Below, piece by piece: positions 6,361 to 47,273 of a stretch of DNA of 64,000 nucleotides. Numbering within the stretch: position 1 is the first letter of the stretch; every line of letters starts with the position of its first letter. The position numbers and the translations under genes are program-made. A model generated the notes under the pieces. The model did not search any database and was not told where the DNA came from. It saw only the letters and a program-made list of their open reading frames with translations. Source of the DNA: Bacillota bacterium (GTDB lineage: Bacteria > Bacillota > Clostridia > Acetivibrionales > JAMNXU01); the NCBI GenBank assembly GCA_023623175.1, contig JAMNXU010000026.1:74383-138382 (forward strand). Direction: 5' to 3'.

Positions 6361-6577
6361 TCATTTTCACTCTCCATGGCAAAAAAACGGGCAATGATGC
6401 ATAATGCGACCGTGTCGCCTATGTCTGTAATAATCGCTATGGTACAGCTTTACAATCATTATATCCATATGCCCCGTCCTTTTTGCTTATTTAGGAATTA
6501 ATTCTATACAATACTATCATACTGAAGAACTAAATTCAATGTAAAATTTGGGCAACATGACACACGGTGGACAGCGT
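6361..6577. other. non-coding spacer, no gene seen
   Basis: AT-rich spacer between the ykuK leader terminator and the GGGGACGG repeat pair. Reading both strands I see no frame with a credible start and ribosome binding site. Confidence 0.5.
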
Positions 6578-6638
6578 GGGACACGGGGACGGTTCTCTTG
6601 TCCCATGACGGAACACGGGGACGGTTCTCTTGTCCCAC
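6578..6638 (+). repeat. direct pair of a dispersed GGGGACGG element
   Basis: Two copies at 6578-6605 and 6611-6638 share ACACGGGGACGGTTCTCTTG followed by TCCCA. GGGAC at one end and GTCCC at the other make each unit an imperfect palindrome. The same element occurs in a larger array at 17484-17760. Similar GGGGACGGTTC repeats are dispersed in many Firmicutes genomes and resemble REP elements mobilised by TnpA_REP (RAYT) enzymes, but no such enzyme is in the window. The pair lies in the 3' region of the TrxB-like gene. Confidence 0.85.
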
Positions 6639-15711: not shown

Positions 15712-17418
15712 TCAATCTCCCGGTTTCAAAATTTCTACAGCTGTATCGACAGCCTCTTCCGCGCTCATTTCCCTTTTTTCCTTGCTGTTCCTCAACTTCA
15801 TCTCGACTATCCGGTCAACGGCTTTTCTGCCGATGGTTATCCTGACGGGAATGCCCAACAGGTCGGCGTCGTTGAATTTCACACCGGCGCGTTCGTCGCG
15901 GTCGTCAAGGAGAGTTTCCACCCCGGCTTCCTTAAGCTTTTCGTACAATTCCTGCGCCAGCCCGAAGGGCACGGGGTCAACGCTGACGGGCACAATAACC
16001 GCCTGGTAGGGAGCCACCGAAACCGGCCATATAATTCCGTAATCATCGTGGCTGTATTCTATTATCGCGGCCATGATCCTGCCGATGTCGATTATATAAG
16101 AGCCCATTACAACAGGCTTTTCGCTGCCGTTCTCGTCGATATACATGCAACCTGCCGCATCGGTGTATCTCGTCCCGAGCCTGTTAATACGCGCTACTTC
16201 AATGCCTCTTTCGATTTTCAGCGGGCTTTTGCACCGGCAGCACGGATCTCCCTCGACAACATTTCTCAGGTCAGCGACCGTTCCCCTGAAGTCCCTGTTA
16301 ATATTCACATTCACAAGATGATACCCGGTCTCGTTCGCGCCGGTTATCAGGTTTACTGATCGGGCCACTTCCATATCTATGTACAGCTCGGCATTTATCC
16401 TCACCGGACCCGCAAAGCCAATATCAGCACCGGTGGCTTTTCTGACGGTTTCCCCGTCAGCCATTTCAAGTTCGCCGCATTGGGCCGCAGCGCGCAGTTT
16501 TGCTTCATTCAGTTCCCTGTCGCCCCTTACCATTGCGGCTATGATCCTGTCGCCCGAGCGATAAATTAATGTTTTGGCGAAGCGGTCGGGAGAACAGCCG
16601 AAAAAGTAAGTCAAATCTTCTATCGTTCTTGCATCGGGAGTTTCAACTTTTTCTATGGGAAGCATTTCGGAAAAATCGGCATTGCCTCCGTCCGCCGCTC
16701 CGCACGCTGCAGCAGACACTGCGTCAAGTCCGGCTGCATAACCGCATGCTTTGCAGTGGGCAAAAACCGTTTCTCCAATATCCGATCGCACTAAAAACAC
16801 AGATGAATCGCATCCGTCGGGGCTTTTAGATTCAGCTTCAACAACTTCAAGCCCACAGCGCTCAAAGATTCGCCTGTATGCTTCATGCATTTTCCCGAGG
16901 GATTCCCCGAGACCCTGTTCATCCCTGTCAAAGCTGCACGCTTCCATTACAAGGTATTCCCTGCATTTTATGATGCCGTTTCCCGGTTTTTTTTCATCGC
17001 TGTATATGTTTTGAACATGGTAAAGTAAAAGAGGAAAGGACCTGTAAGACCTTGTGCTGTGTTTTACGATATCTGCGAATATTTCCTCGCCGGTGGCGCC
17101 GAGACACAGTTCCCTTCCTGATCGGTCCCTGAATTTGTGTATTTCCGGGCTGAAATGTTCCCATCGGCCCGACTGCCTGAATGGCTCGGCAGGCAGAAGC
17201 GCCGGAATCGAAATCTCCTGTGCGCCTGTTCTTTCCATCTCTTCTCGTACAACTTGCCCTATTTTTTTCAGGGTCCTGTATCCCACAGGAAGATAGGCAT
17301 AAAGCCCCGATGAAATTTTTCGCATCAGGCCGGCTTTCAGCATCAGTTTATGGCTGACAGCCACGGCTTCGGCAGGAATCTCTCTCAGCGTAGGCGCCAG
17401 CAGCCTGGATATAAACAT
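15712..17418 (-). CDS. bacterial-type prolyl-tRNA synthetase relative with eroded catalytic motifs
   Basis: 568 residues, full length for bacterial ProRS with the INS editing domain. The synthetase core deviates at conserved sites. TGEE (109-112) replaces THEE, YSDEKKP (139-145) replaces FRDEIRP so the motif 2 arginine is Ser140, DSSVF (204-208) replaces the SxEF proline-site segment, and motif 3 reads SYIIDIGR (440-447) instead of CYGIGVSR. The editing domain keeps its key positions: Lys282 in AKTLIYR, VRGDRELNE, GFAGP (334-338) and GANETGYH with His367. It may edit mischarged tRNA-Pro rather than charge tRNA. AAGGAGG precedes the ATG. The gene follows the canonical proS. Confidence 0.85.
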   Translation of the reverse strand: MFISRLLAPTLREIPAEAVAVSHKLMLKAGLMRKISSGLYAYLPVGYRTLKKIGQVVREEMERTGAQEISIPALLPAEPFRQSGRWEHFSPEIHKFRDRSGRELCLGATGEEIFADIVKHSTRSYRSFPLLLYHVQNIYSDEKKPGNGIIKCREYLVMEACSFDRDEQGLGESLGKMHEAYRRIFERCGLEVVEAESKSPDGCDSSVFLVRSDIGETVFAHCKACGYAAGLDAVSAAACGAADGGNADFSEMLPIEKVETPDARTIEDLTYFFGCSPDRFAKTLIYRSGDRIIAAMVRGDRELNEAKLRAAAQCGELEMADGETVRKATGADIGFAGPVRINAELYIDMEVARSVNLITGANETGYHLVNVNINRDFRGTVADLRNVVEGDPCCRCKSPLKIERGIEVARINRLGTRYTDAAGCMYIDENGSEKPVVMGSYIIDIGRIMAAIIEYSHDDYGIIWPVSVAPYQAVIVPVSVDPVPFGLAQELYEKLKEAGVETLLDDRDERAGVKFNDADLLGIPVRITIGRKAVDRIVEMKLRNSKEKREMSAEEAVDTAVEILKPGD

Positions 17419-17483
17419 AACCTTTTCCTCCTTTTGCTGACACAGGGCAACTCCCGTTCAAGGTGACAGTTCCCCTGCCTGAT

Positions 17484-17760
17484 ACAAGGGGACGGTTCTT
17501 CTGTCCCACCATGATACCTGGTACCTGGAACAGTTTCCCGACCTGGTATGCGGGAACGGTTCACTCTGCCCGTTCCGGTGCCTGGTACACGGGGACGGTT
17601 CCCCTGTCCCGATATCGGAACAAAAGAACCGCCCCCACATTCTTCGCTGTCAATTGGGACAAAATGGCCGAACCAATATATCGGTTCACCTGTCAAGTGA
17701 TTGGGACAAGAGAACCGTCCCCTTGTCCCGATTGGGACAAAAGAACCGTCCCCGTGTCCC
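17484..17760. repeat. head-to-head inverted array of the GGGGACGG element
   Basis: Three forward copies (17484-17508; a degenerate one 17547-17572; 17586-17610) face four reverse copies (17617-17637; a degenerate one 17655-17674; 17703-17729; 17734-17760). The core is ACGGGGACGGTTC with CTTGTCCC at the far end. Two forward copies are preceded by CCTGGTA. The array fills most of the 360-base gap between the two ProRS genes and could fold into one large cruciform. No coding frame in it looks genuine. Confidence 0.85.
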
Positions 17761-17778
17761 GGTTTCCTTGTCACGTTA

Positions 17779-19215
17779 TTAATATGCCTTCGCCCAATAA
17801 ACCATTGTTTCGGCCTTTTCGCCGCAGCATACACATTTATCTGAAATCTTTTCCTGCTGGAAAGGTATGCAGCGCGCCGTTGCTCCGGTTTTTTCCTTAA
17901 TGTTGTCTTCGCATTCCCTTTTTCCGCACCACATTGCCTTTATAAACCCAGGCGTTTTTTCGATGATTTCCGAAAACTCTTCGAAATTCCGGGCTGTAAA
18001 TGTTTTCTTTTCCCTCATTTCAAGCGCCTTTTCATACAGGCTCCGCTGCACGGTGTCAAGCGCCTGCAGGACCTTCTCCTCGAGCTCGTCCATGGATACA
18101 AACAGCTTTTCCCTGTTATCTCTTCTGACAAGGACCACCTGGTTCTTCTCAATATCCTTGGGACCTATTTCGAGCCTGAGCGGAACGCCTTTCATTTCAT
18201 ATTCACTGAACTTCCAGCCAGGCATCTTGTCGCTGTCGTCAATCTTTACCCTTACCTTGCCCTTGAGCCTGTTCATGAGTTCATAGGCTTTTTCAAGCAC
18301 GCCTTCCCTGTGTTGCTGCACCGGAATTATCACGAGCTGGATGGGAGCCACTTTCGGCGGAAGAACAAGACCGCTGTCATCACCGTGCACCATGATCAGC
18401 GCTCCGATTATACGCGTAGACATGCCCCACGAAGTCTGGTGCACATATTTCAACTGGTTGTCGCGGTCGGTGTACTGTATCCCGAAAGCCCGGGCAAAGC
18501 CGTCGCCGAAATTATGGGAAGTTCCCGACTGCAGCGCCTTTCCGTCATGCATCAGGCTTTCTATTGTATAGGTTTCCTGCGCTCCCGCAAATTTTTCCTT
18601 GTTGGTCTTTTTGCCCTTTATAACGGGTATGGCAAGAAACTCTTCGCAGAAATCGGCATATACATTGAGCATGCGAATGGTTTCTTCCTGGGCTTCCTCA
18701 GCCGTGGCATGGGCAGTATGCCCCTCCTGCCAGAGGAATTCCAGTGTCCTGAGGAACGGGCGCGTGGTTTTCTCCCACCTTACCACGGAGCACCACTGGT
18801 TGTAAAGCTTCGGAAGATCCCTGTAGGACTGAATGACGTTTTTGTAATGATCACAGAAAAGCGTTTCCGATGTCGGCCTCACGCAAAGCCTTTCAGTAAG
18901 TTGTTCCTGTCCGCCGTGGGTTACCCAGGCCACTTCTGGAGCAAAACCTTCAACATGGTCTTTTTCCTTCTGAAGCAGCCCTTCGGGAATAAACAGCGGC
19001 ATGTACACGTTCTCATGCCCCGTCTCCTTGAATCTCCTGTCCAGTTCCCTCTGGATGTTTTCCCAGATAGCATAACCGTAGGGCCGGATAATCATGCAGC
19101 CCCTGACACTTGAATAATCGACAAGTTCAGACTTCTTCACCACATCGGTGTACCATTGGGCAAAGTCCTCGTTCATGGATGTAATCTCTTCAACAAACTT
19201 TTTTTCCTGCGCCAT
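17779..19215 (-). CDS. proS: prolyl-tRNA synthetase, archaeal/eukaryotic type
   Basis: 478 residues of the short ProRS type without an INS editing domain. All class II motifs are normal: [14 protein letters not shown], the motif 2 arginine in [25 protein letters not shown], and [20 protein letters not shown]. The C-terminal domain has [18 protein letters not shown], the usual Tyr end, with paired cysteines typical of the zinc-binding version. It charges tRNA-Pro. GGAGG sits seven bases before the ATG. A T-box leader directly upstream couples expression to uncharged tRNA-Pro. The ProRS-like gene downstream could be read through from the same promoter. Confidence 0.95.
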
Positions 19216-46892: not shown

Positions 46893-46967
<75 letters not shown>

Positions 46968-47000
46968 GTTTAGGTCAACAAAACCGCTGACCATAAAAAA

Positions 47001-47075
47001 TGGAGCGGGATACGAGATTCGAACTCGCGACTTTCACCTTGGCAAGGTGACACTCTACCACTGAGTTAATCCCGC
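47001..47075 (-). tRNA. tRNA-Gly (GCC)
   Basis: Acceptor GCGGGAT/ATCCCGC, D-arm with CTCAGTGGTAGAG, anticodon loop TTGCCAA with GCC, T-loop GTTCGAATC and encoded CCA. Confidence 0.95.
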
Positions 47076-47080
47076 GTGCG

Positions 47081-47156
<76 letters not shown>

Positions 47157-47196
47157 GTATAGAGGCGATGCTTTCAACATCTGCCTCTCTGCTGAA

Positions 47197-47273
47197 TGGC
47201 GACCCGGAAGGGGCTCGAACCCTCGACCTCCAGCGTGACAGGCTGGCATTCTAACCGACTGAACTACCGGGCC
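47197..47273 (-). tRNA. tRNA-Asp (GTC)
   Basis: Acceptor GGCCCGG/CCGGGTC, D-arm GTTCAGTCGGTTAGAAT, anticodon loop CTGTCAC with GTC, T-loop GTTCGAGCC and encoded CCA. First gene after the promoter. Confidence 0.95.

Follow-up and report, generated by a model that had tools for sequence, protein, structure and literature searches.

The 64,000 nt stretch of DNA analysed here (the window) carries, at 15712-19215, tandem genes for both kinds of prolyl-tRNA synthetase, one of family I and one of family II with an editing domain. Both proS genes are transcribed from the minus strand and are separated by a 360 nt spacer (17419-17778), in which an imperfect palindrome of 29 nt, YGGGACACGGGGACGGTTCTCYTGTCCCA, can be recognised six times, as three forward copies facing three reverse ones. 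Copies were scored in bits with a 29-nt weight matrix built from the source genome's own copies, and the features of the locus are as follows.

15712..17418, minus strand: proline--tRNA ligase family II with editing domain, 568 aa, downstream gene (TIGR00409, 501.6 bits; PF04073)
17454..17482, plus strand: doubtful fourth forward remnant (5.5 bits; five reversed-window matches exceed 3 bits)
17480..17508, plus strand: element copy, forward, TGATACAAGGGGACGGTTCTTCTGTCCCA (36.4 bits; exact GGGGACGG)
17544..17572, plus strand: degenerate forward element copy (14.2 bits)
17583..17611, plus strand: element copy, forward, TGGTACACGGGGACGGTTCCCCTGTCCCG (40.1 bits)
17616..17644, minus strand: degenerate reverse element copy (12.7 bits; inverted repeat I5; fold)
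17652-17682, minus strand: further remnant in the reverse register (only 61 % similarity to the reference)
17702..17730, minus strand: element copy, reverse, CGGGACAAGGGGACGGTTCTCTTGTCCCA (44.9 bits)
17733..17761, minus strand: element copy, reverse, CGGGACACGGGGACGGTTCTTTTGTCCCA (45.9 bits), 17 nt past the stop codon of the family I gene
17779..19215, minus strand: proline--tRNA ligase family I, 478 aa, upstream gene (TIGR00408, 631 bits)
6577..6637, plus strand: another array of the element elsewhere in the window, in which two direct copies repeat every 32 nt (47.7 and 44.5 bits)

A sequence-only reading of the window had described three forward copies facing four reverse copies around 17613 and filling the gap. 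The count is correct once the degenerate copies found in the weight-matrix scan and the remnant at 17652-17682 are included, and the array does take up about 300 nt of the spacer. At its centre the degenerate reverse copy pairs with the adjacent forward copy at 17583-17611 to form a hairpin, and exact GGGGACGG octamers lie at 17488 and 17591 on the plus strand and at 17715-17722 and 17746-17753 on the minus strand. The window also contains a cluster of four tRNA genes (46896-47273, minus strand). Of 30 proS family I loci retrieved from the order, only those of the source genome and of G409, a member of another family, have the two proS genes side by side.

The element belongs to a large dispersed population, as the earlier reading had supposed when it likened the copies to RAYT-mobilised REPs and proposed a genome-wide search. 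The exact core GGGGACGGTTC is present in 282 copies in the source genome (G000) and in a single copy for the reversed control. Genome statistics were taken from a 781 kb sample and a 391-kb hold-out, and in the former the weight matrix detected 125 elements at 14 bits or more with one match in the reversed control. The consensus, derived from 107 copies in the 781 kb, has arms GGGACA/TGTCCC followed by a mismatch, then a short stem that includes G-T pairs, and CGG as the loop, and information falls to background just outside it, beyond positions -8 and +20. Gene prediction relied on a home-made codon-usage finder, for which exact gene starts are approximate, and placed 118 of the 125 elements outside predicted genes where about 27 were expected, as well as 70 of 71 in the hold-out. 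Within the window the short octamer occurs seven times against 1.8 expected, a number that one in 100 window shuffles also reaches, and it could accordingly be asked whether chance G-rich low-complexity sequence explains the matches; the ratio of 282 to 1, the weight-matrix control and the covariation of the arms described below refute this reading, whose probability we regard as negligible. Literature searches with the core GGGGACGGTTC, and with GGGGACGG together with the word repeat, gave nothing relevant among the papers listed.

Over the combined 1.17 Mb (41 % of the genome) the copies form 73 clusters: 43 same-direction arrays, 15 head-to-head, one tail-to-tail and 14 singles. Same-direction copies recur with a period of 31-33 nt, with a second mode at 21-22 nt where the 3′ arm is missing. 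Some of these arrays repeat the spacer sequence along with the element, which points to tandem duplication. A search beside direct arrays for a decayed partner in the opposite orientation found four weak copies ahead and none behind, too few to conclude from.

The position of the clusters relative to genes follows a pattern that bears on how the array should be read. Within 60 nt of gene ends, 26 clusters adjoin 3′ ends and four adjoin 5′ ends (16 and five in the hold-out), while random points are distributed about equally. Copies within 30 nt of a 3′ end are in sense orientation in 14 of 15 cases (8 of 9 in the hold-out), whereas those within 60 nt of a 5′ end are mostly antisense, with one of four in sense orientation and none of five in the hold-out. 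Since the 5′-end copies are antisense, the rule is not that elements are sense in RNA; copies are directed into the spacer and away from whichever gene is closest, like the ends of an inward-facing (> <) unit. A transcriptional cause of the 3′-end bias is ruled out by the opposite bias at 5′ ends, the orientation tracking the side of the spacer.

These data weigh on the proposal, in line with the earlier reading, that the array is a functional RNA device: its hairpins would terminate, attenuate or shield the proS transcript, uncoupling the two genes, and the array would be retained for this effect. The long hairpin foreseen in the spacer RNA is borne out by computation (-165 kcal/mol, z -7.6 against shuffles), and the closeness of clusters to gene 3′ ends in sense orientation fits such a role. 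However, the antisense copies at 5′ ends are oriented as transposon ends would be, several inner copies of the spacer are degenerate, and no convincing intrinsic terminator (a GC stem followed by a T run) was found in the spacer, only the weak tails GGTTCTCTTG and GCCATTTTGT. Neither a T-box nor another Rfam structure was detected there; Rfam matches at E values up to 1 comprised weak plant miRNA hits (MIR3440, 22.7 bits, where the gathering score is 105), which are caused by the inverted repeat. The repeat is moreover genome-wide, and the element is absent beside proS at all 29 other family I loci checked in the order, one of which has GGGGACGG 499 nt downstream. The data do not support a function made specifically for this proS pair, and we consider the RNA device unlikely. 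In E. coli, REPs exert polar or stabilising effects on RNA, and by analogy a similar effect of the array on proS RNA is possible.

The earlier reading had added that no transposase is near and had suggested a search for TnpA_REP proteins. Its statement holds within the window and fails for the genome, which encodes three Y1_Tnp genes, one of which, on contig C30, lies between arrays of the element.

C30:31142-31921: REP-associated tyrosine transposase (RAYT) gene flanked by element arrays (PF01797; NF047646)

Two elements lie on one side of this gene and three inverted elements on the other (>> and <<<), and the repeats beside it are those found elsewhere in the genome, as is typical of the family. 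The C30 RAYT scores 83.6 bits against NF047646 (REP_Tyr_transpos; cut-off 80) and has the Y1_Tnp core of REP-associated tyrosine transposases, with an HUH motif (H60/H62) and a single tyrosine, Y119, in Y---NP; H60, H62, Y119, N123 and P124 are invariant in 16 of 16 aligned sequences. A PDB profile search with this protein returned 4ER8, TnpAREP bound to a REP hairpin, as the sole match. The AlphaFold model of its relative L037 (64 % identical) likewise has 4ER8 as its top Foldseek match (E 4.7e-8, TM (target) 0.74), so that, by way of this relative, the C30 enzyme is predicted to adopt the TnpAREP fold. The L037 model adds a C-terminal helical domain of three helices (residues 229-260), which may correspond to the HTH-like extension of TIRYT enzymes; Pfam HTH matches are weak and confined to a few members. 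At -60, where a copy usually lies, the C30 gene has none, and the array upstream of it is about 530 nt away. The element is missing from the 200 nt on either side of the other two RAYT genes of the source genome (contigs C39 and C19), which were treated as non-cognate; as loci L032 and L033, these RAYT-like genes show 38 % and 32 % identity.

Relatives of the C30 RAYT were gathered from named genomes (80 loci) and from a sample of the class (29 loci), collections that partly overlap (for example L037 and L117), so that the following counts are not fully independent: among the 27 relatives with at least 50 % identity, 19 have a forward element within 200 nt upstream and none a reverse one, while downstream 15 have a reverse and one a forward element. 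In clostridial relatives of the C30 RAYT the element occupies the same positions with the same orientation. In 391 genomes of the class a RAYT match was present in 28 of the 33 with at least 20 copies and in 101 of the 358 others (Fisher p 2e-10), although this tally was done by hand and the genomes are related, so the test overstates independence. No RAYT was detected in the remaining five genomes with at least 20 copies, one of which is only 76 % complete. G172, with 71 exact core copies, has no RAYT match at E 1e-3, and G272 of the same genus (55 copies) has one; the repeats of G172 are possibly orphaned. A contig of a MAG labelled Pacearchaeota (L041) bears a clostridial-type RAYT with flanking elements and is probably misbinned.

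Elements were also compared across species for covariation of the arms. In 48 distinct elements, 46 from RAYT flanks of other genomes and two from the source genome, with truncated tandem copies omitted, 93.5 % of the cells of 10 pairs are paired, and 58 cells show double changes, whereas shuffling gives 15.7 and sliding gives no more than 29. Arm pairs include AGACA/TGTCT, TGTCA/TGACA, GCCA/TGGC, GAAGC/GCTTC and TGAGTA/TACTCA. On this sequence comparison the arms vary between species and yet remain complementary around a near-constant core, of which the GGGGACGG octamer is invariant by construction, having been used to collect the elements, and the following TTCT was not required. G353 carries a related element with the changed core GGGACGGAGC.

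How the element should be classified was judged against three known groups. Classical GTAG REPs and REPINs with their RAYTs (E. coli, Pseudomonas; PMC2817692, PMC3116915) are likewise short imperfect palindromes that are extragenic, clustered and found beside a RAYT gene, and the C30 enzyme matches 4ER8. That the element is simply such a population is nonetheless very improbable: the 107 copies have no GT[AG]G at the hairpin foot and no conserved base outside the palindrome, what is constant is the sequence of the upper stem and loop, and long same-direction tandem arrays outnumber inverted pairs. CGTC-tagged REPs (PMC3733652) share the preference for head-to-head dimers; however, their tag is at the end and they have no associated transposase, whereas here CGTC is internal (in CCGTCCCC) and the element flanks a RAYT. 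The element and the C30 enzyme thus work like a REP/RAYT system of neither the GTAG nor the CGTC class.

The closest known group is TIRYT/GGGGWSAS (subclass 2.1), as judged by the published motif and not by subclass 2.1 reference sequences. TIRYT/TIRtron inverted repeats carry a GGGGWSAS motif (Di Nocera 2013, PMC3733652), and in both cases a Y1/HUH RAYT-like transposase is bordered, at a set distance, by inverted repeats whose core contains GGGG; some TIRYT repeats are also amplified in dimers or clusters (PMC3733652). In contrast, the core here, GGGGACGG, departs from GGGGWSAS at base 7, and the element is a hairpin with covarying arms present in hundreds of copies, mainly in tandem arrays, in Clostridia. 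Because relatives below 50 % identity, many of them from Campylobacterota, have a forward GGGGWSAS upstream in 41 of 82 cases and a reverse one in 5 of 82, the clostridial element and the GGGGWSAS repeats look, from their sequences, like one continuum. Subclass 2.1 TnpAREP has been equated with RAYT group 1 of Bertels 2017 (Quentin 2018, PMC6006769), and the same survey reported no REP-like sequences near subclass 2.1 genes (PMC6006769).

Related genomes offer spacers that lack the array. In G409, from the same taxonomic order, the two proS genes have the same arrangement, with 45 nt and no element between them, and in silico deletion of 17454-17761 from the source spacer leaves 52 nt including the ribosome-binding site; the comparison is with a single genome of another family, the source genome being alone in its genus and family. 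Within genus g100, 90 copies are present in G166 and none in its sister species. The G166 RAYT is 32 % identical to the C30 RAYT and lies between >>>> and <<<< arrays, whose copies have different arms and recur exactly every 21 nt. Different elements occupy the dnaJ spacer in G166 and G353, and none is present there in G143 and G388; the G353 element, with its changed core, is head-to-head in the dnaJ-prmA spacer (L276), the same spacer that holds G166's own array. At L254:12819-13066 of G166, a <<<< array and a 109-nt stretch separate two genes that we take, from their position, to be hrcA and grpE; in the sister species the stretch lies beyond hrcA, which suggests a rearrangement with the array at the breakpoint. 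The G409 and g100 comparisons concern array-free orthologous spacers and not strain-level empty sites.

The head-to-head arrangement might also be the remains of a complete RAYT transposon (TIRtron) that has lost its transposase gene, with each half-array marking one of its ends. The > > ... < < layout is indeed that seen around the C30 and G166 RAYT genes. Yet 90 nt (17612-17701) separate the innermost strong copies, a stretch that is too short for any transposase gene and consists in part of degenerate elements, and there are 15 head-to-head clusters to only one RAYT of this type, which argues that short > < units are the common form. We hold the remnant to be quite improbable.

We consider it highly probable instead that the array between the proS genes is a REP-like non-autonomous cluster, made and spread by the TIRYT-kind HUH/Y1 RAYT encoded on C30 and inserted in the proS pair. 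The likeliest reading is that a mobile-element array came to lie between the two genes, and not that a switch arose for the sake of proS. In the mechanism we propose, the near-constant inner part GGGGACGGTTCT is enclosed by arms that need only to pair, and the RAYT, we infer, would recognise the single-stranded hairpin together with the core, cut it and rejoin it. Inward-facing (> <) units would be put into gaps between genes, mostly right after stop codons, and neighbouring copies would then multiply in tandem with a period of 31-33 or 21-22 nt. At this locus the two proS genes, probably co-transcribed, would have been about 50 nt apart when one > < unit was inserted between them, which then partly decayed. 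We give an even chance to the more specific proposal of a system widespread in Clostridia, namely that the clostridial RAYT reads the fixed core GGGGACGGTTCT in the upper stem and loop while the arms are free to evolve as long as they pair, and that lineage-specific, compatible and tandem-amplified repeat populations arise in this way.

As such arrays sit in many spacers of the source genome, usually just after stop codons, arrays of this kind between genes should not be read as gene-specific regulators. If core reading is true, it would be a mode of recognition unlike that of the GTAG foot, and the enzymes of RAYT group 1/subclass 2.1 would gain their missing REP partners. Should the clostridial enzymes belong to subclass 2.1/RAYT group 1, they would supply that group with a large repeat population that has lineage-specific arms and a near-constant core, and the co-evolution of RAYTs with their repeats would become testable in Clostridia.
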